12,794 bases of DNA, from positions 1 to 12,794 of the forward strand of contig JALXCG010000693.1 of assembly GCA_026991065.1 (NCBI GenBank), written 5' to 3'. The number at the start of each line of letters is the position of its first letter. The stretch's first letter is position 1. This document shows positions 1,149 to 11,960 of the stretch, piece after piece. Source of the DNA: JALXCG01 sp026991065 [NCBI: Gemmatimonadota bacterium]. Its GTDB lineage: Bacteria > GCA-2686955. The position numbers and the translations under genes were made by a program. The notes beneath the pieces were generated by a model. It did not search any database and was not told the origin of the DNA. It saw only the letters and a list, made by a program, of their open reading frames with translations.

Positions 1149-2264
1149 CTACTTGAGCAGGAGCATGGAGCGCTCGATCACCTGTCCCTCGGCCTGCAGG
1201 CGGTAGAGATAGACACCGCTGGCCAGGTTTTCCGGTTTCCACCCGATGGTGTGGCGCCCGGCCTGGTGAACGCCGTCGGCCAGCGTGGCGACTTTGTGAC
1301 CGGCGAGGTCGTAAACGCTCAGATTGACGGGTGACGCCTCGGTCAGTTCGAAAGTGATCGCCGTGGAGGGGTTGAACGGGTTGGGCGCGTTCTGGCGCAA
1401 CGCGATCTTGCTTGGGGCGGCCGGCGCCTGCGGGTTCTCATCGGCGATGCCGACCAGTGCCGGATACCAGTCGTCGAGTTCCAGTTCAAGTGTCGGGTTG
1501 GTGTCGTCCATCTCGAAGGTCAGATTGGCGAAGCAGTCGTTGCCGTAAAGGTTGCGCAGATCCTGCCACATCCAGTGGGTGGCGTCATCCCAGGCGGTGC
1601 AGGGATCGCCGAGAATGTCGAAGCGCTCAGGCTTGGTGTCGGCGTGGGCGCGGTATTTGTAAGCGATGGTTCCCTTGGGTGTGGTGCCGGCCGGGAAGAG
1701 GAGCGATACAGACCAGGTGCCGTCGCCGTTGTCAACGAGTTGGGTGTTGTCGTCGTCCCAGTTCAGGGGCGCTGCGGCGCCCCGGATCGCCATCTGATCG
1801 ATGGTGCAGGTCGCGCAGTCATCATTTTCCAGGACGTTGAAGGTGACTGTCACATCCTGTGATGTGAAACCGGCGAAATCATTGAAGTAGACCAGATCCA
1901 GCACCTTGTCTTCACCCTCGAAGAGGAAGGTGCGGTTGTTGATGCTTTCCCAGGTCAAGTCACCCCCCGAGACAATGACGTATTTGAACTCGACCGTGGT
2001 ACCGGCGTTGGAATTGTCGAAATCCAGAATGGTCTCATAGACCCCCGGGTTGAGAACACTCTCGGTCAGTACATTGTCGCTGAACCAGTCCAGCGGAGCG
2101 ACGCTGCCGCGGACAACGACCTGGTCGCCGCTGCCGGGATCGAACGCACCGATCTCCTCCTGGGCGGACATGTCCACCTGGAAGAGCACCGCGGATGTGT
2201 CGGCCAACGCGACCGTCGATGAGGCTGCCAGCGCAACCGCCATGAGCGTTAACATCTTTTTCAT
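1149..2264 (-). CDS. Secreted two-domain starch-binding-like protein with type A sorting C-terminus
   Basis: About 371 residues. A Sec signal peptide (MKKMLTLMAVALAASSTVALA) is followed by two similar beta-rich modules, about residues 25-130 and 133-260. Each starts with a 'V-x-F-x-V' type strand and carries a 'VVRGSVAPLDWF' or 'AIRGAAAPLNWD' segment and a 'KY(V/R)' strand. This resembles the E-set/CBM folds of SusE/SusF-type starch-binding proteins; that assignment is by pattern, not search. The second module has several cysteines (DDCATC, DPC, NDC) that may form disulfides. The last 85 residues hold NAPNPFNPST, VYDLAGHKVATL, SGVYLYRL and the ending MLLLK, the hallmark of type IX type A sorting / FlgD-like domains. 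Two adjacent ATGs exist (2267, 2264). GGAGG at 2271-2275 is 3 nt from the first and 6 nt from the second, favouring 2264. It is the last gene of the run, about 110 bp after the PorV-like gene. Likely role: surface binding of an alpha-glucan. Confidence 0.82.
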   Translation of the reverse strand: MKKMLTLMAVALAASSTVALADTSAVLFQVDMSAQEEIGAFDPGSGDQVVVRGSVAPLDWFSDNVLTESVLNPGVYETILDFDNSNAGTTVEFKYVIVSGGDLTWESINNRTFLFEGEDKVLDLVYFNDFAGFTSQDVTVTFNVLENDDCATCTIDQMAIRGAAAPLNWDDDNTQLVDNGDGTWSVSLLFPAGTTPKGTIAYKYRAHADTKPERFDILGDPCTAWDDATHWMWQDLRNLYGNDCFANLTFEMDDTNPTLELELDDWYPALVGIADENPQAPAAPSKIALRQNAPNPFNPSTAITFELTEASPVNLSVYDLAGHKVATLADGVHQAGRHTIGWKPENLASGVYLYRLQAEGQVIERSMLLLK

Positions 2265-2270
2265 CATCTA

Positions 2271-2275
2271 CCTCC
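2271..2275 (-). promoter_or_regulatory. Strong ribosome binding site of the two-domain secreted protein
   Basis: GGAGG on the minus strand is the clearest Shine-Dalgarno sequence of the operon. It lies 6 nt before the second of two tandem ATG codons, so translation most likely begins at 2264 rather than 2267. The last gene can therefore be translated without coupling to the PorV-like gene. Confidence 0.7.
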
Positions 2276-2343
2276 GGTTAGCCTCTGGTCGCACTCGTGG
2301 AGCGATTCCTTCCTGCGAACCAGTGCCTGTCCAAGAATCGAAA

Positions 2344-2358
2344 TCCGCTCGAAGCGGG
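2344..2358 (-). terminator. Intercistronic stem-loop, possible weak terminator or attenuator
   Basis: CCGCT (2345-2349) and AGCGG (2353-2357) form a perfect 5-bp stem with a 3-nt loop. In minus-strand RNA it reads CCGCU-UCG-AGCGG followed by AUUUCGAUUC. It lies about 20 nt past the stop of the PorV-like gene, in the widest gap of the operon. The stem is short and the U-stretch interrupted, so it may only reduce read-through or protect the 3' end. Confidence 0.25.
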
Positions 2359-2378
2359 CTGGTGAAGTGCCGAAGAGG

Positions 2379-3494
2379 TCAGAACTCCAGCCCGAGCGTG
2401 AAGAATTGAGTGGTGTCGAGACGCCCATAGTCCGCCCAAGCATAGTCGATTCGCAGCGCGCCGAAACCGCGAATCTCCCAGTTGATCCCGGCGCCGGCGG
2501 TGAGCCCGCCTTCTACCGCGTCATCCCGCTCAATGTCGAAGCCGACCCGTTCGGCCAGATTGCGCGGGCTCAGGTGATTCCAGCCCAGTCGCACAAAAAG
2601 GATTCGCGACAGGGCTGCTTCCAGACCCAGGTTGAGCGACTCCAGGTTGTCGTTCGGATGGATGGCATCAATCGCGGCGCGGATCGGCAAAACCGTGGAT
2701 TGCAGAAGATCCAGAGCGATCCCCGCGCGGAAGGTGAGCGGCAGATTCCAGGAGTTGACGTCGAGATTGGCCGGGGTGTTTTCGTTGTTGCCATCGACAC
2801 CGCCATCCAGGTCCTTGGTGGTGAGCAGGTCCAGGCCATTCATCTGCATTCGCGTGCCGAAGTTGGAGATCGCTGTTCCGATGGTGAGGTTTCGCCACGG
2901 GATGCGGTAGAGCGTGCCGATGTCCAGGGCCCAGCCGTCGGCTGACTCATGCCAGATCGACTGGTGGACATATTTGGCCTGCCCGCCGATGGAGAAGCGG
3001 TCGGTGAGCGAGGTCGCATAGGAGAGGGCAAACGCCAGATCACGGGGTGTGAAATGTTCGCCGGTTCCCTCCTGCTCCAGCACGGTCGTCACCTCCATGC
3101 GGCCGGCATCCAGGAGCGTCAGTGAAGCACCCGCGGTTCCACCGGCGATTCCCGGCAGCACCACGCTGGCGTATTCGAAGTTGATCCCGGCGAGCCACTC
3201 GGCGTGTTGAAAGAGAAGTTGGGGGCGTTCCAACTCGGCCACGCCGGCAGGATTCCAGAACAGAGCGCTGGCGTCGTCGGCAACTGCGGAGAAGGCGCCC
3301 CCCATCGCGGTTGCGCGGGCGCCGATTCCCAGGGTGAGAAAGGGCGCGGCCGTGGTCCCGACATTGGTCTGGGCCGCGGCAGCGGGGAGCAAGGTGAGTG
3401 AACTCAGAGCCATCGCTCCGAGCCCCAGGGCCCGGGAGAAGGCCCGCCGGCGCCGGCGGTGGCTAGGCATCGAATGGAGGAAAAAGCGCGTCAT
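2379..3494 (-). CDS. PorV/PorQ-family outer-membrane beta-barrel protein
   Basis: A 371-residue protein with a basic N-terminus (five arginines at 13-17), a hydrophobic signal segment and a likely cleavage after 'LLPAAAA'. The mature start holds the family signature: 'PFLTLGIGARATAMGGAFSA' then 'VADDASALFWNPAGVAEL'. This is the N-terminal pattern of PorV/PorQ (UPF0164-like, FadL-type fold) barrels. Alternating beta strands follow, and the protein ends in FFTLGLEF, with the C-terminal phenylalanine typical of barrels folded by BamA. In type IX secretion PorV binds sorting-domain cargo at the outer membrane; several lineages also carry many PorV paralogues of unknown role. The start codon overlaps the stop of the 1078-residue protein gene (ATGA, 3494-3491), indicating translational coupling. 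A second ATG at 3470 gives a shorter signal peptide but has no better ribosome site. Confidence 0.85.
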   Translation of the reverse strand: MTRFFLHSMPSHRRRRRAFSRALGLGAMALSSLTLLPAAAAQTNVGTTAAPFLTLGIGARATAMGGAFSAVADDASALFWNPAGVAELERPQLLFQHAEWLAGINFEYASVVLPGIAGGTAGASLTLLDAGRMEVTTVLEQEGTGEHFTPRDLAFALSYATSLTDRFSIGGQAKYVHQSIWHESADGWALDIGTLYRIPWRNLTIGTAISNFGTRMQMNGLDLLTTKDLDGGVDGNNENTPANLDVNSWNLPLTFRAGIALDLLQSTVLPIRAAIDAIHPNDNLESLNLGLEAALSRILFVRLGWNHLSPRNLAERVGFDIERDDAVEGGLTAGAGINWEIRGFGALRIDYAWADYGRLDTTQFFTLGLEF

Positions 3495-6400
3495 TTGATC
3501 ACCGCGAATTTGCCGATATGCTCACCGTAGCCCGGTGCATCGACATGGTAGAGGTAGACGCCGTAGGCGATATCCAGATTGTCGCGAGAGCGGAGGTTCC
3601 AGTAGGCGAAGCCGCTCATGTCGCCGCTGTCTTGATGCTCGATCGTATCCACCAGCTCGCCGCGGATCGTGTAGATGCGAATGGTTGCCGCCGGTGGCAA
3701 GTGGGTAAACATGATGCGCCGCTCGCCACGCTCCTGGCCGATGCTGCCGGCCGGCTCCAGCGCATTGCCGGCGACGTAGGGGTTCGGCACCACCTTGATG
3801 GCGGAGAGATCGTAGTTGCTGTTTTGCGCGCTGGCTTCGGCCGGCGAGGTCTGCAAGAGGTAGAGATCGCCGTCCTCGCCGCCGCGGAAGGGGATGGTGG
3901 TGTGGGCGGTGTAGACCGCGCCGTCCGGAGGCGCCGCGCCGCCGCCGTCGTCGATCGCCAGGCTCCAGGTGGCGAGCAGCGTGTCGGGGTGCGCGGGGTC
4001 GGGTTGGAGCAGAATGATCTGGTCTCTCGGGTCAAGCACACCATCCTCCGACCCCAATTCCCACCAGGCGAAAGCGACCGGTCTCTCAACCCCGCCGGTG
4101 ACGTCGACCACATTGAAGTGGGTATCCACAGCCGGGAGGACAATCGAACCCACCAGATCCTGGACCTCGAACTCGGTCGCGCGGCCGGAGATCTGGTCGG
4201 TAATGCGCAACTCGAAAACCCCGGGCCAGGCATGCCCGTGAGTGCGGCGGAAATTGAACACGCGCGGCTCCACCGTGTAGACATCGACCGGCGCGTTGCG
4301 CCAGGTGGAGAGCGAGTCGATGGCTTCCACCGGCCCCTGCCCCTCCATGGCCAGGCGAATGCCATCGAAGAAGTCATCCGTCGGACCGCCGGTGACGCGC
4401 CGGGAGTTGCGGACCAGGAGCGAGTCGCTGTCCAGGTCGCGCACTGAGTAGCCGGCCGTCATGCGCGCGCGGAGCGTGTCGCCGTCCCAGTAGGTCGTAT
4501 CGCTGAAACTGATTTCGTAATTGGCGCTGCGCACCTTGGTGGGATCGACAATGTCGACCCTGAGGGAACCGGTCGCGCTGCCCGCCTGATGCTCCAGCAG
4601 GTCCACCGTCGCGTCGGAAAACCCACCGGCGACGGTTCCCGGCGTTGCCGCCACCGTATTCTTGTCGAAGAGCAGCACCCCCCCCTCCAGTTCGGTGATC
4701 GACTTGGTGGTCTCCGCCGGTTGGATCAGCTTTTCCACACTGCCGTGATCGTAGGCCGTGACCGCGTAGTAGTAGGTGCGACCGTTGACCACGTCGGTGT
4801 CTTCATAGACATATTGCAAGCCGGTGTCCTTGCCGAGGAAGAACTGCAGCCCGCGCCCCTCGATCGGGATCTCGAAAAAGTCGAAACGACCGTCGATCAG
4901 ATCGAACTGTGCGATCGGCTTGGAGAATGTCTTGCGCCCTTTGGCATCGGTGATGGTGAAGCTCTCATTGAAGAAGGGTTCGGTGGAGCGATAGATCTTG
5001 TAGCCCTCGAAATCGCGTCCGAGAACATCATCGACGCTGTTTTCCGAGTCCTTGCCGTCCCAGTAGAGCGTGACCTTGCTGGAATCCGCCACCGCCCATA
5101 CTGTGGGCAGTGCCGGTGGCCGCGCGAAATTGTAGTTGTCGTCGTAGATCTTCTGCGCCGTGCGCTTGTTGTTGACGATGTCCTCCATGTCGTCACCAAA
5201 GACCAGGGCCATGGAGAAGCGCTGGGTTTGGCCCGCCTTCAGTGGGAAATAGCCGGAACCGTAAATGAAATCGCCGTCCTCCGCGCGCCCCGGCACGACA
5301 TCGAAGCGCCCCGGTTCCATGCGCGTCCACTGATCTTCATCGTCATTCATGCGCAGGGCGCTCGATGGCGCGAAATAGTCGAAACTGGTAAGCCCGATCT
5401 GGTCCGATTCATTCACGTCGGTGGCGTCGAAATTGCGCTCACCCGGCGTGGGGATGCCGTCCCCTTCGCCTTCGTCGCCGGTTCCCGGAACACCGTCGGC
5501 ACCGGTGTCGTTCAACAGCGGATCCCAATCGCCATCATTGTCGATGCCGTCGTCGCGACGCTCATCGATCATTTCATCGATCAGACCATCGCCGTCGTTG
5601 TCGATGCTGTCGGCATAGGCGAGGCCGACATGTTGCGGCCCCTCGTCGATGAGTCCATTGCCGTTGTCGTCGATGCCATTGTTGGGTTCCTCTCCGGCCA
5701 GCATGTCGTAGGTGATGAGCGGACTGCCCTCTTCGCCGTCGCCGTCGTCATCGATCCCGTTGAAGGGATTGCCGGGCGATTCGAGAAATGCGTAGCCGAC
5801 ATAGCCGACATTGGCGTCACCCCAGGCGTCGGAGTGGTTGTCTTTGTCCCAGGAGTAGGTGATGTCGTCTTCGAGATCGAAAAACGCCAGGTCGTCGTTG
5901 GCGTCGTTGCGCCCGCCGGAGAGTGTACCCACCACCATGCCGAAGACGACCTTGTCATAGTCGTGGACCGAGATGTTGGTCACCTCGTAGAGCCAGAAGA
6001 TCACATCCTCGGCGAGAAAGTGCGACCACTGCAGACCGCGCACCTTGACCAGCAACCCCAGCCCCATCCGCTCCGGATCCTCCGGGTCGGGCAGCCACAG
6101 AATTGTGCCGTCGTCGGCGCGATTGAACTCGGCGTCATTCGCATCGTCCATGTAGTAGAACGATTCCTGGTCGGCATTGCGCACGTCGCGGCCGAAGTAA
6201 CCGTTCCATTGCCCACCCCAGGAGAGGGGGCGATCGGGCCAACTCGCCGGCCACGTGGTGGGCAGGTGGCTCATCGCCACCCCGGGACCATCCTCGGCGA
6301 GGAACCCCGGAACCGGCTCGAAGCCCCAGAAGACCCCGCCGCCGGGGCCATCCGAGTTGCCCCGCGGACCGTCGCAGGTCACCACCGAGTGGACCGTTTC

Positions 6401-6727
6401 GCCCTTCAGATTGGTGTATTCCACCCCGACCAGCGGAGTGACGTCGCCCACATACTCGTGCCCGGTCCCCTTCGGCCACTCGCCGGAGACCTCGCCGACA
6501 TTGGCGACCAGACCGAAATTGTAGAAAACCGTGGCCACCTTGTTGCCGTTGTGCATCCCCTTGCGGCGCCAGGTGGCGTTGCCCTTCTCCAGGTCGGAGA
6601 GTTCCTGAGTGAATGCGGGCAGAGCGGAACCGGCGACGACCGATCCCAGAACCAGCGCGCCGAGCCAGCGGCGCGGAGAGTTCAGGCGGAAGTGCGAGGC
6701 TGTTTTTCGATTGCGCTGGAGATCCAT
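3491..6727 (-). CDS. Large secreted surface protein: calcium-type repeats, FN3-like domain, sorting-type C-terminus
   Basis: A 1078-residue exported protein. The N-terminus (HFRLNSPRRWLGALVLGSVV...FTQ) is a signal peptide cleaved near residue 41. Residues about 45-320 form an aromatic-rich domain I cannot name. Residues 323-401 carry four aspartate-rich segments: NGIDDDGDGEEG, NGIDDNGNGLIDEG, SIDNDGDGLIDE and DGIDNDGDWDP. These match thrombospondin type 3 / dockerin-like calcium-binding loops. About 535-663 looks like fibronectin type III (VTLYWD, GYKIYRS, TYYYAVTAYDHG). The last roughly 100 residues (VVPNPY, TIRIYTIRGELVDTI, YGVYLYHV, ending GKFAVIK) resemble FlgD-like sorting domains of FCB bacteria. 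It begins 16 bp after the receptor gene and overlaps the PorV-like gene by 4 bp. Function is unknown; a surface-exposed partner of the receptor, or PorV cargo, is inference. Confidence 0.8.
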   Translation of the reverse strand: MDLQRNRKTASHFRLNSPRRWLGALVLGSVVAGSALPAFTQELSDLEKGNATWRRKGMHNGNKVATVFYNFGLVANVGEVSGEWPKGTGHEYVGDVTPLVGVEYTNLKGETVHSVVTCDGPRGNSDGPGGGVFWGFEPVPGFLAEDGPGVAMSHLPTTWPASWPDRPLSWGGQWNGYFGRDVRNADQESFYYMDDANDAEFNRADDGTILWLPDPEDPERMGLGLLVKVRGLQWSHFLAEDVIFWLYEVTNISVHDYDKVVFGMVVGTLSGGRNDANDDLAFFDLEDDITYSWDKDNHSDAWGDANVGYVGYAFLESPGNPFNGIDDDGDGEEGSPLITYDMLAGEEPNNGIDDNGNGLIDEGPQHVGLAYADSIDNDGDGLIDEMIDERRDDGIDNDGDWDPLLNDTGADGVPGTGDEGEGDGIPTPGERNFDATDVNESDQIGLTSFDYFAPSSALRMNDDEDQWTRMEPGRFDVVPGRAEDGDFIYGSGYFPLKAGQTQRFSMALVFGDDMEDIVNNKRTAQKIYDDNYNFARPPALPTVWAVADSSKVTLYWDGKDSENSVDDVLGRDFEGYKIYRSTEPFFNESFTITDAKGRKTFSKPIAQFDLIDGRFDFFEIPIEGRGLQFFLGKDTGLQYVYEDTDVVNGRTYYYAVTAYDHGSVEKLIQPAETTKSITELEGGVLLFDKNTVAATPGTVAGGFSDATVDLLEHQAGSATGSLRVDIVDPTKVRSANYEISFSDTTYWDGDTLRARMTAGYSVRDLDSDSLLVRNSRRVTGGPTDDFFDGIRLAMEGQGPVEAIDSLSTWRNAPVDVYTVEPRVFNFRRTHGHAWPGVFELRITDQISGRATEFEVQDLVGSIVLPAVDTHFNVVDVTGGVERPVAFAWWELGSEDGVLDPRDQIILLQPDPAHPDTLLATWSLAIDDGGGAAPPDGAVYTAHTTIPFRGGEDGDLYLLQTSPAEASAQNSNYDLSAIKVVPNPYVAGNALEPAGSIGQERGERRIMFTHLPPAATIRIYTIRGELVDTIEHQDSGDMSGFAYWNLRSRDNLDIAYGVYLYHVDAPGYGEHIGKFAVIK

Positions 6728-6743
6728 GAAGAAAACGCCGCTC

Positions 6744-9575
6744 TCAGAAGTTCAGGTTGAAACCGACTTGGACCTGTCGGGGGGAGGAGAAGAGACTCGG
6801 ATTGTCGAAGAATGCATCGACGCTGTTGACATACTCGGTGGAGAGTTCGCGCGCCCTGATCTCCGCCAGACTTTCGGTGGCGCGGCCCGTGTCGCTGTAG
6901 ACAAAGAGTTCGTTTTCGCGGTCGAGCAGGTTGAAGATGCGGAGGAAGAACTCCACCTTCCGGCTGCGCACCAACCAGTTGTAGTGAGCCTGCAGGTCCA
7001 CGTTATAGAAAGCTGGAATCCGCCCGATGTTTTCCACCACCGCGCCGGGATGGACCTCGCTCGGTGTGTAGGGGGTCGGACTCCAGATGTTGGCAAGGAT
7101 GCTGCCGCCCCAGTGCTCGCGGTTCAGCCCGCCGCGCAGGTTCAGATTGTGGCGCCGATCCCAATTCAGCGGGACCAACTGCGGCAGGGGCTCCAGGCCG
7201 CTGCTCAACCTGCGGAACGCGGTGGCCGGGTCGGAAGCGACCCCCTCGGCGATCTGGAAGGTGTAGTCCACGCTCCAGAAATAGCCGGCGCGATCCTCCG
7301 AGTAGGAGAGGGCGATGCCGCGGGCGTTGCCCTGATCGCGGTTGTTGTACTGGGTGTATTTCTTGCCCGCCGAGTAGGTCTCGACGATGCGATCCGAGGC
7401 GAGCAGATTGCGAAAATCGCGGAAGAAGAAGTCGGTGGTCAGCCGGCCCGATTCGCCGATCTGTTGCTGAATGCCGATCTCGTACTGCACCGTCTTCTGG
7501 GCGTCGATATCGGGGTTGCCCATCAGCGCGGTGATGCCGACCCCGTCGCCCATCCGCCATTGCGGATTGCTGTAGATGGTGGAGAGTGTCGGCATCTGGA
7601 AAAAGTGGCCGTAGGAGACGTGGATTCCACCGGTATCGGTGATCGGATAGGAGAGACCGATGCGCGGCGAAACCTGATACTTGACCGTTGCCGGCTTGTA
7701 CATGTAGGGGCGGCGCCACTCGGTCGCCCCGGGATCGTCCCAGGGAATGGTGTAGACACTGTCCTGGTAGACCGGTGCCCCCTGATCATCGAAGCCGTAG
7801 ATGCGCCCTGAGCTGTGGTCGAAGAAGGAGCGCAGCGGACTTTCGACATTGGGGTCGCGCGGATCGAAGGGGATCACCGCGTTGGGAGCAAAGCGGTCGA
7901 GCCGCAAGCCGATATTCAGCACCAGATCGGCAACCTCCAGCTTGTCCTGCAGATAGGCGCTGAAGTCACTCGGCGAAACCTTGAACTGCTCGATCAGCGG
8001 GTCGCCGACACGCCCCTGGAACACCGTTTGATTGTAGGTGTCGAGATCGTGGGCGCGCCACTCCAGCCCCGCCTTGACCAGATTCTCGTTGTTGACCTGG
8101 CTGGTGAACGCCCCCTTCAAGACCCTGGTCTGGGTCTGCTGCTCCCACCAGTTGGGCGCCACACCACCGGTCGCGAAGGAGTAGCCGTAGGGGGGAATGT
8201 GGGTGAGGTAGTCGGTGAAGTAGTAGCGTGGGTCGTTGCGATCCTCGAACACCCACGACTCCTGGTGGTTGTCGAACCAGGAGAAGCCGAGGTCGACAAA
8301 ACTCCGCCCCGCGCTGTCGACCGTCCAGGTGGCGGTGAGCGTGTGGGATTGGCCGGTTTTGCGGTAGCTGGGGGTGCCGTCCGGGTTGTAGCGGAAATAG
8401 CTGTCGAAATTGTCGTTCTTGCTGTTTTCGAGCAGAACATTGTAGCGACAGGTGAGCCGCGTCGATGGGCGGTAGGTGAGTTTCGCCTGGCCTGAGTATT
8501 TGCGGTAGCCGTTCATGGCCACGAAGGAACTGTCGCCGGTCGGCAGCATGCGCCAGTCGCTCTCTTCCAGCGGCGTAAAATCGGCGACATCATAGTAGTT
8601 GAAGACCCGGCGCCCGTAGAGATAGCCATCGGAGCCGGTGGCGCGGGCACTGGCGAAGAGCGAGAGTTTGCCCGCGACGAGTGGACCGGAGAGGGTCGCC
8701 TGAAGGTCGCGGATCGCGTCCGGCGCCAGATCGTCGATGCCCCAGAAGAGGTCATCGTGGGTGGAGAGGAAGTCGCCTCCGTAGCCGGAGAGACTGCCGT
8801 TCCATTCACTCGCCCCCTCCTTGGTGACGATGTTCACCACCCCGCTCATCGCCTGCCCATACTCGGCATTGAAGGCGCCGCTGAGCACCTGCACCTCTTC
8901 GATCGAGGCGTTTTCCACCGCCACCGACTGGCCGCCGGTGAAGACGTCGGTGAAAGAGACTCCATCCACCATGAACGCTACTTCACCCGAGCGGCCGCCG
9001 CGAAAATGGATGCCGCCGCCCGCATCGGTTGTGATGCCGGCCTGTAGCTCCAGCAGGTCGCCCAGCTCAGTGGCCGGGGTGTCGTCGATATCATCTCTGC
9101 CGACCACTGCTTGCGACGCCGTAAGATCCTTCTGGAAAAGCACGCGGTCGGCGACCACCACCGCTCCGCCATCCTCCAGCTCGATCACCTGCGGGGAAAG
9201 CTCCAGGCGCAGGCGCGAAGTGTGGTCGATCGTCACCCGCACGCCGGTCACGGTGCGGCTGCTGTAGCCCACATAGTCGGCGCGCACCGTATAGGTGCCG
9301 GGCCGGACATTGAGGATGAAGAAGCGGCCTTCATCATCGGTGGCCGCCCCCTGGTTCTGGCCGACCAGAATGACGTTGGCGTAGGGGAGGGGCGCTCCGC
9401 TCTCGGCATCGAGCACGCGGCCGGCGATCTTGCCGGTGGTGCCGGCGAGGGCCGCGCCGCCAAAGCTGAGCGCGACCAGAAGCAGGAGCACTTTTAGGCG
9501 ATTGCAACGGAACTGCATGATTCGAGCCAAACCAGTTGAAACGAGAGAAGCCGCGGAATGAGTCGCGATGCTCAT
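6744..9575 (-). CDS. TonB-dependent outer-membrane receptor with carboxypeptidase-like N-terminal domain
   Basis: About 943 residues. After the signal peptide (RLKVLLLLVALSFGGAALA) comes a CarboxypepD_reg-like beta-sandwich, about residues 46-115 (GKIAGRVLDAESGAPLPYAN, TDDEGRFFI, PGTYTVRADYVGYSS). A TonB plug follows at about 135-265, with FRGGRSGEVAFMVDGVSF and the 'AEYGQAMSGVVNIVTKEG' motif. The rest is a long 22-strand-type barrel ending VQVGFNLNF. The architecture is that of SusC-like and related receptors, which use TonB/proton-motive energy to import oligosaccharides or other large ligands. Next to an amylase, alpha-glucan import is the likely job, but the ligand is inferred. Start choice: ATG 9575 overlaps the amylase stop in an ATGA. 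ATG 9518 would give a compact 25-residue signal peptide (MQFRCNRLK...). Neither has a clear Shine-Dalgarno site. No SusD-like gene follows. Confidence 0.9.
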   Translation of the reverse strand: MSIATHSAASLVSTGLARIMQFRCNRLKVLLLLVALSFGGAALAGTTGKIAGRVLDAESGAPLPYANVILVGQNQGAATDDEGRFFILNVRPGTYTVRADYVGYSSRTVTGVRVTIDHTSRLRLELSPQVIELEDGGAVVVADRVLFQKDLTASQAVVGRDDIDDTPATELGDLLELQAGITTDAGGGIHFRGGRSGEVAFMVDGVSFTDVFTGGQSVAVENASIEEVQVLSGAFNAEYGQAMSGVVNIVTKEGASEWNGSLSGYGGDFLSTHDDLFWGIDDLAPDAIRDLQATLSGPLVAGKLSLFASARATGSDGYLYGRRVFNYYDVADFTPLEESDWRMLPTGDSSFVAMNGYRKYSGQAKLTYRPSTRLTCRYNVLLENSKNDNFDSYFRYNPDGTPSYRKTGQSHTLTATWTVDSAGRSFVDLGFSWFDNHQESWVFEDRNDPRYYFTDYLTHIPPYGYSFATGGVAPNWWEQQTQTRVLKGAFTSQVNNENLVKAGLEWRAHDLDTYNQTVFQGRVGDPLIEQFKVSPSDFSAYLQDKLEVADLVLNIGLRLDRFAPNAVIPFDPRDPNVESPLRSFFDHSSGRIYGFDDQGAPVYQDSVYTIPWDDPGATEWRRPYMYKPATVKYQVSPRIGLSYPITDTGGIHVSYGHFFQMPTLSTIYSNPQWRMGDGVGITALMGNPDIDAQKTVQYEIGIQQQIGESGRLTTDFFFRDFRNLLASDRIVETYSAGKKYTQYNNRDQGNARGIALSYSEDRAGYFWSVDYTFQIAEGVASDPATAFRRLSSGLEPLPQLVPLNWDRRHNLNLRGGLNREHWGGSILANIWSPTPYTPSEVHPGAVVENIGRIPAFYNVDLQAHYNWLVRSRKVEFFLRIFNLLDRENELFVYSDTGRATESLAEIRARELSTEYVNSVDAFFDNPSLFSSPRQVQVGFNLNF

Positions 9576-11419
9576 TGCGGAGCCAGGTAGAGAAGCCCGG
9601 TGGAGGCGGGGACCACTTGATTCACCACGCCGCCCGCGGGCACCGCCAGAACCTCGTCGCGGCTGCCGGTGGCGGGATCGAAACGCCGCCACGCTCCCTC
9701 CGCGGGGAAGTGCAGCGCGACCTCGTGCTCCTCGTGGTCGAAATTGAGCACCACCAGAATCGCCTGGTCGCCGCTGCCGCGAATGTACTGCAGAATGCGA
9801 TCCCCTTCGTCCGGCGACGACGGCACCGCGCCCCCTGTTGCCCAGACGAACTGGATCTCGGTCGAGGCCAGCGCCGGTTCCTCCAGCCGCAGATGGATCA
9901 GATTCCGGTAGTAGTCGCGCAGCCCCGGCGCCGCCGCATCCCAGTCGATCGGACTCGGCGCCGGATTGGCGTCGATCGGGTTTGCCACGCCGATCTCCTG
10001 GCCGTGGTAGAGCATCGGGATGCCAATGCTGGTGAACAAACTCACCGCCCCCAGCCGCGATTTCTGCACCCCGCCGATCTGCTTGGCGAAAGCGCTGCCG
10101 GAGTTGTCCACCTGCTCCACCACCCGCCGCTCATCGTGGCTTTCCAGGTATTTGATATCCCGCCACGGCCCGCGCCCCTCATTAAAGGTGGTCACATCGG
10201 CGGTCGCCAACATCGGTGAATCGTTGGCCGCGAAACTGCCCACCACATCGCCGTAGCGACGCACATATCCCGTCTCCGCCAGGTTGCAGTTGAGCCGCTG
10301 GTGATAGTTGTTGACCCGCCCGCCGTAGTTGGAGGATTGCCCGCCCCACTGGGCATCGAACCCGACCGCCGGGTCGAGCGCGCCGCCGCCGGTGTCGAAG
10401 CTCTCGGCGATGTGGAAGGTTTCGGGAAAGCGCTCCTTCAGCGGCAGCACCACCTTGGCCCAGTTGGAGAGCGCCTCCCCCTCGACGAAGTCGTAGCGAA
10501 AACCGTCGACCCCCCGATCCTCGATGAAATGGGAGAGCGCGCCGACGAAATAGTCGATCACCGCCGGGTTGTTCCAGTCGAACTCCGGCAGGCCGAAAGG
10601 ATTCTCCGCCGTGGGGTCGAAGTAGTACGACTCGCCGGTCACCCACTCCAACTCCGCCAGCGGATGGTGCCCGCCGGCATGGTTCAGCACTACGTCCAGA
10701 ATCACCGCCACGCCGCGCGCATGGCAGGCATCCACCAGATCCCGCAAACCGTCGCGCCCGCCATAGGCGGGTTTCACCGACCAGTGCGAGCCGCAGTCGT
10801 AGCCCCAGGAGAAGCTCCCCGGCACCGGGTGGATCGGCATCAGCTCCAGCGCGTTCACCCCCAGGTCGACCAGCGCGTGGTCGCCGCCATCGAGTGCCGC
10901 CACGATATCGGCGAAGCGGCCCTCGGCGGAGAAGTCCGACACCATCATCTCGTAGATCACCAGCCGCGCCGGGTCGATCGGCGCCGGCAGCGGCCGCGGC
11001 GGCTGATAGGTGCGATCCACCCGGGTCTGGAACGGATCCAGCCGGAGGTCGGCCGAGTCCTCGCCGAACGGATCCTCGATGCGCGCCAGCGCCCCCTGGG
11101 CATAGACCGCGTAGTGGTATGCGAAGCGCTGCGGCAGCTCGCCGGCGTCCAGCACGAAGGTCGCCGAATCGGCGTCGTCCGCCGCCAACTCCATGCGCCA
11201 CTTCGGATCGCGCGGGGCCCATTGATTGAACGAGCCCTCGATGAAGACCGAATCGGCCCCGGCCGCGCGCAATTCAAAATGGAACGGGCCGCCATCGCGC
11301 CGGTCCGGCGAAACGGGGTCGTCGGAGCAGGCGCTCCACAGACCGGCGGCGAGGATCACGGAGGCGGCGACAGCGAGGCGCCAGGGAGCGTGGCGTCGGC
11401 GTGAGGATGGGAAGCGCAC
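9572..11419 (-). CDS. GH13 alpha-amylase family glycoside hydrolase, probable lipoprotein
   Basis: 615 residues from the GTG at 11419. The signal peptide is MRFPSSRRRHAPWRLAVAAS... ending GLWSAC, with Cys31 as probable lipidated residue (the lipobox is loose, with W at -3). Residues about 42-130 form a CBM48/isoamylase-N-type E-set domain (VFIEGSFNQWAPRD). The GH13 barrel follows with all hallmark regions: DVVLNH (242-247), GFRYD with nucleophile D310, IAES with acid/base E339, and SHD with H428 and D429. The catalytic triad is complete, so an active alpha-1,4/1,6-glucan hydrolase or transglycosylase is expected; exact specificity is unknown. A C-terminal beta-domain ends the protein (LVVLNFDHEEHEVALHF). 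An in-frame TTG at 11518 would extend the N-terminus by 33 residues, but that codon lies between the candidate -35 and -10 boxes. First gene of the five-gene run; its TGA overlaps ATG 9575 of the receptor gene. Confidence 0.9.
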   Translation of the reverse strand: MRFPSSRRRHAPWRLAVAASVILAAGLWSACSDDPVSPDRRDGGPFHFELRAAGADSVFIEGSFNQWAPRDPKWRMELAADDADSATFVLDAGELPQRFAYHYAVYAQGALARIEDPFGEDSADLRLDPFQTRVDRTYQPPRPLPAPIDPARLVIYEMMVSDFSAEGRFADIVAALDGGDHALVDLGVNALELMPIHPVPGSFSWGYDCGSHWSVKPAYGGRDGLRDLVDACHARGVAVILDVVLNHAGGHHPLAELEWVTGESYYFDPTAENPFGLPEFDWNNPAVIDYFVGALSHFIEDRGVDGFRYDFVEGEALSNWAKVVLPLKERFPETFHIAESFDTGGGALDPAVGFDAQWGGQSSNYGGRVNNYHQRLNCNLAETGYVRRYGDVVGSFAANDSPMLATADVTTFNEGRGPWRDIKYLESHDERRVVEQVDNSGSAFAKQIGGVQKSRLGAVSLFTSIGIPMLYHGQEIGVANPIDANPAPSPIDWDAAAPGLRDYYRNLIHLRLEEPALASTEIQFVWATGGAVPSSPDEGDRILQYIRGSGDQAILVVLNFDHEEHEVALHFPAEGAWRRFDPATGSRDEVLAVPAGGVVNQVVPASTGLLYLAPQ

Positions 11420-11477
11420 GAGTCTTCTCGTTTTCGAGGCGACCGTGGCCGCCGCAGATGTTGCGATTTTGCTGATT

Positions 11478-11501
11478 GTGGTGGAGGCGAAAATCCACCG
11501 C
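11478..11501. promoter_or_regulatory. Operator-like inverted repeat at the predicted transcription start
   Basis: GGTGGA (11480-11485) and TCCACC (11494-11499) form a perfect 6-bp dyad with an 8-bp spacer; the stem extends by one wobble and one G-C pair to 11478-11501. The dyad begins just downstream of the candidate -10 box and spans the predicted +1. That is a common position for a repressor operator. It could instead be a 5' mRNA hairpin if transcription starts further upstream. Confidence 0.35.
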
Positions 11502-11503
11502 CT

Positions 11504-11532
11504 ATTGGACCAGATCAACCGCTCGGAGTCAA
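11504..11532 (-). promoter_or_regulatory. Candidate sigma70-type promoter of the amylase operon
   Basis: On the minus strand TTGACT (-35, 11532-11527; 5 of 6 matches to TTGACA) and TCCAAT (-10, 11509-11504; 4 of 6) are separated by exactly 17 bp. Transcription would start near 11497, leaving a leader of about 78 nt before the GTG at 11419. It is the best promoter-like match I found upstream of the operon. The housekeeping promoter consensus of this lineage is unknown, so confidence is moderate. Confidence 0.45.
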
Positions 11533-11780: not shown

Positions 11781-11960
11781 GGCGCGCGAGCGAGGCCGGT
11801 GATCACCTGTCCCGGGGCGGGTGGCGCGAGCGTGGCCGGCAATCACCTGTCCCGGGGCGGGTGGCGCGAGCGAGGCCGGCAATCACCTGTCCCGGGGCGG
11901 GTGGCGCGAGCGTGGCCGGCAATCACCTGTTCCGGGGCGGGTGGCGCGAGCGTGGCCGGT
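11781..11960. repeat. 40-bp tandem repeat array, four full units plus a partial unit
   Basis: Four complete units lie at 11801-11840, 11841-11880, 11881-11920 and 11921-11960. A partial unit at about 11781-11800 precedes them, and a more degenerate copy may extend back to about 11751. The units differ at only four positions (1, 11, 33 and 40). Each unit contains CACCTGT and GCGGGTG (unit positions 4-10 and 17-23), which can pair around a CCCGGG loop; the two G-U pairs make this hairpin stable only in plus-strand RNA. The 40-nt period is not a multiple of three and shifts frame at each copy, so the array is not coding. There are no spacers, so it is not CRISPR. Confidence 0.9.

Follow-up and report, generated by a model that had tools for sequence, protein, structure and literature searches.

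The textbook route of large sugars through the outer membrane in bacteria of the Fibrobacterota-Chlorobiota-Bacteroidota kind is SusCD, and sugar-use loci are commonly searched for by way of SusC and SusD. A 12,794-nucleotide stretch of the draft genome of the uncultured bacterium JALXCG01 sp026991065 (assembly GCA_026991065.1, contig JALXCG010000693.1; hereafter the window) was analysed, in which five genes are read, with fair confidence, as an outer-membrane glycan-uptake operon that lacks SusD. In the accessible parts of the literature, lipoprotein-capped TonB-dependent transporters are stated to seem exclusive to Bacteroidetes (PMC10404256), SusC and SusD are described in general terms (PMC10576277), a sus operon with SusC, SusD and SusE is reported in the 2013 paper on Melioribacter roseus (PMC3534657), and, for the Caldithrix genome, TonB receptors are mentioned solely in connection with B12 and thiamine (PMC5317091).

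Open reading frames, called by a simple script rather than a gene finder, place the five genes head-to-tail on the minus strand. They encode a GH13 amylase, a TonB-dependent receptor (TBDR), a surface protein of 1078 amino acids (named LP here), a PorV/PorQ-family barrel and a double-CBM20 protein that carries a sorting domain of the type IX secretion system (T9SS):

9572..11518, minus strand: GH13 protein of the alpha-amylase family, its N-terminal region resembling CBM48/AMPK-CBM, lipobox possible (PF00128, 87 bits)
6744..9518, minus strand: TBDR with a CarboxypepD_reg domain and a plug (TonB barrel 85, plug 47, CarboxypepD_reg 72 bits)
3491..6727, minus strand: LP, 1078 amino acids, between the TBDR and PorV-like genes (open reading frame, conserved position)
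5108..6601, minus strand: LP residues 43-540, predicted beta-supersandwich domain (structure model, fold searches)
3494..3808, minus strand: LP residues 974-1078, probable C-terminal domain of T9SS type, closest to PorU and PorZ (sequence and profile comparison, Foldseek)
2379..3494, minus strand: outer-membrane barrel of the PorV/PorQ family, proposed to anchor LP (NF033709, 206 bits against a cut-off of 90)
1149..2267, minus strand: protein with two CBM20 domains and a T9SS sorting domain of type A, proposed to bind starch at the surface (CBM_20, TIGR04183)

The GH13 and TBDR genes are about 53 bases apart and the TBDR and LP genes 16, the LP and PorV-like genes overlap by 4 bases, and the CBM20 gene follows the PorV-like gene after 111 bases; the tight packing of five genes reported in an earlier sequence-only reading of the window was thus confirmed. 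That reading had also held that the operon lacks SusD, and had named a SusD homologue as one finding that would speak against it; family scans recognised none in any of the five proteins. The SusD families PF07980 and PF12771 were likewise without match in the organism's own 4.1-Mb draft genome, although a SusD elsewhere may have been missed, as the draft is 84% complete and lies in 902 contigs; the control Bacteroides ihuae gave matches in the same search. A profile built from 12 SusD regions had no match in the open reading frames of the homologous LP loci described below. Concealment of a SusD within LP was rejected on account of these empty searches and of the model of the LP N-terminal domain, a beta-supersandwich and not the helical SusD fold; SusD was also not among the rows listed by the LP fold searches, an absence that alone is no evidence. 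The TBDR scored below the SusC/RagA family cut-off (TIGR04056, 63 bits against 368), and because of this the operon is Sus-like in a functional sense only.

The set of TBDR, LP and PorV-like genes is widely conserved, in many groups of bacteria that have received little study. A scan of GTDB with the single LP protein as query gave no match; an alignment-based scan succeeded, and the best 80 of its 550 confirmed stretches are the loci compared here. Among the 98 genomes searched, LP matches occurred in 29, and 27 of these genomes lie outside the window's own family; the labels of the 80 loci (which may err for drafts) include Ignavibacteria, Melioribacteraceae, Calditrichota, KSB1, Neomarinimicrobiota, Stahlbacteria, Cloacimonetes and Stygiobacter electus. 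With TBDR and PorV profiles iterated from the window proteins, the gene upstream of LP was a TBDR in 68 loci, PorV-like in 6 and another gene in 3, with a contig edge in 3; the gene downstream was PorV-like in 60, a TBDR in 1 and another gene in 8, with an edge in 11 (genes of less than 150 amino acids were skipped, and locus L091 was counted although it shares a contig with L071). The expectation of the sequence-only reading that relatives would keep the gene order was therefore borne out across several phyla. Median gaps were 22 bases ahead of LP (80 modules) and 17 behind it (76 modules).

The protein trees of the 80 modules agreed closely (Spearman 0.81 for LP and TBDR, 0.74 for TBDR and PorV, 0.67 for LP and PorV, with L091 left out), against a maximum of 0.28 in 500 permutations. 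Because species history could yield part of this agreement, paralogues within genomes were compared as well, and their 23 pairs gave 0.92 for LP and TBDR and 0.88 for LP and PorV; as these pairs are not independent, p-values for them are not to be relied on. In the sister genome (Gemmatimonadetes bacterium ARS67, the record of both L071 and L091), homologues of the TBDR, LP, PorV-like and CBM20 genes stand in the same order, with 71% identity for LP and 65% for the CBM20 protein; contig L071 stops short of where a GH13 gene would be visible. The organism's own genome holds two further LP-PorV pairs, C735, which is cut by a contig end, and C408 (L014:9123-18942), a divergent copy with the full TBDR-LP-PorV order and a sorting-domain protein. 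The TBDR, LP and PorV-like genes almost certainly constitute a unit of function. The chance that unrelated adjacent genes, or an artefact of assembly, were mistaken for an operon is negligible: the genome is indeed a draft of many contigs, but the same order recurs in the sister genome and in most of the 80 loci, from many groups.

Variants of the module were also noted. A divergent form is kept in C408 and in the sister genome (L057:5386-15294), with a much larger TBDR of about 1,400 amino acids and a sorting-domain protein of about 615 amino acids behind PorV. Whole modules stand two in a row at L115, L116 and L163, and LP genes, or fragments of them, are paired in tandem at L074:8510-13331, L132, L139 and L167.

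The neighbours of the module point to sugars. The first upstream genes (n = 37) encode Por_Secre_tail (24), CBM9_1 (13) and LacI-type regulator domains (3), and the downstream genes (n = 92, at most two per locus) encode Por_Secre_tail (32), CBM20 (12), sugar-type solute-binding domains (9) and the families GH16 (6), GH2 (5), GH94 (4), GH3 (4) and GH9 (2). These counts are among the 25 commonest families listed for each set, so that small counts may be missed, and both sets leave out genes of less than 200 amino acids or beyond a gap of 400 bases. At L073, PorV is directly followed by the genes of a complete ABC transporter set, with two permeases besides the solute-binding protein, and GH94 and GH2 genes lie beside the module at L107; at L074, in contrast, the next gene is of the glycosyltransferase/mannose-isomerase type. 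Among 80 distal genes of the same loci (scanned from 110 genes, drawn from 160 candidates), Por_Secre_tail was found in 9, and CBM20 and CBM9 in at most 2 each, since they were absent among the families listed. The contrast between near and distal genes is conservative because sugar genes occur in the distal regions too (MalK-type domain 4, amylase 2, GH130 2). PPIC-type peptidyl-prolyl isomerase (SurA-like) domains were also seen near LP modules, in 3 of 37 upstream genes and in 5 of 46 and 4 of 46 downstream genes, and may be chaperones for barrels.

Sugar uptake at the locus in the window is, on these grounds, very probable. The module might instead be a TBDR platform of general use, for such cargo as peptides, cofactors or metals, beside which the sugar genes here are incidental; this fits C408 and L057, where the sorting-domain protein behind PorV is no evident sugar enzyme, and it fits the many neighbours in which a T9SS tail is the sole feature or Pfam finds nothing. 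We consider it improbable, given that GH13 and CBM20 genes flank the module here in the same direction, that the sister genome has retained the CBM20 gene, and that CBM, GH and ABC neighbours are common elsewhere and CBM20 and CBM9 rare among distal genes. The use of the module is nevertheless wider than alpha-glucan, as copies adjoin GH94, GH16, GH3, GH2 or GH9 genes. Of the Sus-like alpha-glucan operon that was first proposed, the glycan context stands, and both the likeness to SusC and the restriction to alpha-glucan have to be relaxed.

LP itself matched no Pfam or NCBIfam family over its cut-off, and at E <=0.01 Pfam gave nothing for 15 of the 16 family members compared, the remaining one matching CHU_C, a T9SS signal. 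The model of residues 43-540 (498 residues) is of high quality (pLDDT 93.1, pTM 0.92) and was built on 108 sequences, out of 114 candidate rows from which L091 was left out. In VIA-align, the 50 rows listed for this domain were all sugar-active enzymes (Z 15.4-20.1), among them dextran dextrinase, glucoamylase, glucodextranase, cyclic glucan synthase, GH94 and GH65 phosphorylases and GH116, and the aligned region is presumably the beta-supersandwich domain of these enzymes. The full-length model (pLDDT 71.6; 16 rows) retrieved the same enzymes at Z 14-20 and is poor at residues 318-422, which the 108-row domain model resolves. No helical (alpha/alpha)6 catalytic barrel is present in the full-length model, which beyond residue 540 consists of strands and few helices; for want of such a barrel and of any match to a GH family, LP was thought unlikely to be an enzyme. 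Conserved acidic repeats of the DxDxDG kind occur in the supersandwich (residues ~320-420, window ~5468-5770) and resemble calcium sites. The NCBIfam phage tail tube model NF052337 matches one of the 16 members (E 7.8e-11). The alignments used here and below (A1, A6 and A7) are hand-picked subsets of 16, 20 and 23 rows.

The C-terminal part of LP resembles T9SS tails. The T9SS tail families stay below their cut-offs in LP itself; at E <=0.01, the 16 members matched the NCBIfam models of PorZ (4), Por_Secre_tail (3) and PorU (1). A profile of the LP tail aligned with the T9SS tails of the neighbours at E 3.2e-7 (hhalign, probability 93; 3 of its 23 rows are without tail), and PorZ and PorU were the top two Foldseek rows for the full-length model. 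SprA, the T9SS translocon, is over its cut-off in the organism's own genome, with neighbouring pieces, and was found in all 19 LP genomes tested, 18 of them over the cut-off. The PorV-like protein belongs to the PorV/PorQ family by its NF033709 score, matches PorV of the PDB at E 0.00031, and is below the equivalog cut-offs of PorQ (122/220 bits), PorV (68/250) and PorV2 (90/325). PorU and PorZ retain their T9SS tails and are held by PorV and PorQ, according to the accessible part of PMC5562754. Export of LP by the T9SS and anchoring by the PorV-like barrel is a likely arrangement, and the PorV-like gene beside LP would most simply encode LP's own anchor.

The explanation that we prefer on balance is a SusD-less outer-membrane glycan-uptake operon. 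LP would be exported by the T9SS, retain its PorU/PorZ-like tail and be anchored at the cell surface by a PorV-like barrel of its own, much as PorQ holds PorZ. Its supersandwich would then lie by or over the TBDR and capture oligosaccharides or close the barrel as a lid, a role comparable to that of SusD for SusC or BtuG for BtuB. The GH13 enzyme and the CBM20 protein, judging from their families, would process and hold starch-like alpha-glucans here, and the TBDR would import maltodextrins with TonB energy, for which the sugar ABC transporters of some homologous loci would provide the next step. Gene composition, the lack of a recognised SusD, the kept gene order, co-inheritance, the modelled fold, the likeness of the tail and the sugar surroundings are computational results, and contact between LP and the TBDR, glycan binding, lid motion and sugar specificity of LP are inferred.

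The sequence-only reading had left the capture or lid role to either the large protein or the PorV-like protein. LP is the likelier of the two because of its sugar-enzyme-type fold and its close co-inheritance with the TBDR, and the PorV-like protein is more likely the anchor of LP because studied members of its family hold T9SS surface proteins. That LP is in fact the capture or lid partner of the TBDR seems to us slightly more probable than its contrary. LP could otherwise be a peripheral glycan-binding surface protein in the role of SusE or SusF, with a TBDR that is lidless as in many proteobacterial receptors and a PorV-like protein that is only the secretion partner of LP. LP is indeed much larger than SusD or BtuG, has a T9SS-type tail instead of a lipid anchor, and is separable from the TBDR at a few loci (another upstream neighbour in 3 of 80; L089, L090). 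Yet a TBDR stands directly upstream in 68 of 80 loci, the agreement of the LP and TBDR trees is the strongest of the three, and dedicated binders (CBM20, CBM9) encoded besides LP would already fill the peripheral role, so that this alternative is rated unlikely, with a minority share of the probability.

A number of observations weigh against a SusD-less uptake system with LP as its capture or lid partner. The gene downstream of LP is neither PorV-like nor a TBDR in 8 of the 80 loci, and LP and PorV-like genes are swapped (TBDR-PorV-LP) in five (L121, L122, L124, L125 and L114), which are among the six with a PorV-like gene ahead of LP. The Foldseek TM-scores of the N-terminal domain are low, mostly 0.2-0.4 (best E 1.1e-5), and a common fold by itself demonstrates no function. 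The best matches of the last 105 residues of LP to PDB sequences, PorU (E 0.0053) and PorZ (E 0.01), are marginal. C408 and its sister L057 are without an evident sugar gene directly beside the module. SusD was found in 2 of 19 LP genomes (taken from the 29), in 15 of the genomes behind 50 of the 80 loci (14 over the cut-off) and in 12 of 38 sampled genomes of one family, of which 37 have LP matches (family search around L107); the sets overlap.

Because some LP genomes also have SusD, LP is no universal replacement of SusCD. Where SusD is present beside LP in a genome, it looks like a separate system: its own TBDR directly precedes it in 10 of 12 fetched regions (the other two are short contigs in which no TBDR was recognised), no LP or PorV-like gene was seen near SusD in these 12 regions, and in one genome on a single contig (G155; 3,300,414 bases) the true SusD is at 880,105 and the TBDR-LP-PorV set stands apart, near 1.10 Mb. 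Stygiobacter electus 09-Me (L109) carries LP, and its genome (G115) also has one SusD match.

As to the remaining genes of the window, the identities first assigned were upheld by family scans for the GH13 protein, the TBDR with its CarboxypepD_reg domain, the PorV-like protein and the two-domain CBM20 protein, and the description of the GH13 protein as a lipoprotein was weakened to plausible, as its lipobox (..LWSAC) is imperfect. The GH13 gene has its stop at 9572 and an uncertain start, at 11419 (which fits a GTG start) or 11518 (the limit of the open reading frame); its AMPK1_CBM match is at E 0.2 only, and its catalytic motifs seem intact in the translation read by eye. The TBDR gene has a likely ATG start at 9518, within an open reading frame that reaches 9692, and its stop at 6744. 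The CBM20 protein matches CBM_20 over two stretches (33 bits) and the sorting domain Por_Secre_tail (TIGR04183) at 37 bits, with a cut-off of 23. Past the CBM20 gene, the opposite strand encodes a fragment of an APS kinase as well as a class II aldolase. Upstream of the operon, a GC-rich 40-base unit is repeated 4.4 times (95% matches; window 11784-11959). Promoter and terminator scans of the window were uninformative: one promoter site was found, within the CBM20 gene, where chance predicts 1.7, and 11 terminators, where it predicts 10.1.

The pieces of the operon are of known kinds; no description of the TBDR-LP-PorV set was found in the titles and abstracts searched, a scope outside which lie preprints and most subscription journals. 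The broader proposition is about evenly balanced: that there is a second, SusD-independent class of TonB-dependent glycan uptake across several phyla of the Fibrobacterota-Chlorobiota-Bacteroidota kind, with a glycoside-phosphorylase-type supersandwich as capture or lid protein, exported by the T9SS and held by a PorV-like barrel, and that it is the main oligosaccharide route in some lineages instead of SusCD. Genomes using the TBDR-LP-PorV set would look devoid of sugar-use loci. If LP is a lid exported by the T9SS, protein secretion and nutrient uptake would be joined in one complex, and SusD, BtuG and LP would show that no fewer than three folds, unrelated to one another, have given rise to lids of TonB receptors. 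The LP of Stygiobacter electus 09-Me offers a test protein in a named strain.

Comparison with known systems, as these are described in the accessible parts of the sources cited, shows both likenesses and differences. The operon is like the Sus operon and the utilisomes of Bacteroides in uniting a TonB barrel, surface glycan binders and an amylase (PMC7618045, PMC7782687), and in the capture or lid role proposed here for a surface protein, but it has no SusD, its TBDR is below the SusC cut-off, and its proposed partner, unlike the helical lipoprotein SusD, is predicted to contain a beta-supersandwich, carries a tail of T9SS type and has the gene of a PorV-like barrel beside its own. BtuB-BtuG of Bacteroides, with its pedal-bin mechanism, offers a precedent for a TBDR lid other than SusD (PMC10404256), although BtuG is a beta-propeller lipoprotein for B12, whereas LP is a surface protein of T9SS type and its context is one of sugars. 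The anchoring proposed for LP, a large surface protein that keeps its tail on a barrel of the PorV/PorQ family, is that of PorU:PorV and PorZ:PorQ in the T9SS attachment complex (PMC5562754); these, however, belong to a secretion machine with no link to a nutrient receptor, and LP is neither PorU nor PorZ by cut-off. Type B T9SS cargo with a cognate PorP/SprF is similar in that a cargo gene is linked to one for a dedicated barrel, which acts as shuttle or anchor (PMC12618676, PMC9143113), whereas here the barrel is of the PorV/PorQ family and the tail is closer to type A, PorU and PorZ. In the Flavobacterium BAM complex, the FadL-type barrel BamG carries the large extracellular protein BamH beside another barrel (PMC12611786), but this is a protein-insertion machine, BamH is a lipoprotein, and the PorV-like protein scores only 17 bits to BamG (cut-off 250). 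Finally, LP shares the supersandwich fold predicted for its N-terminal domain with the GH15, GH65, GH94 and GH116 enzymes, from which it differs in that its model is without their helical catalytic barrel and its sequence matches no GH family.

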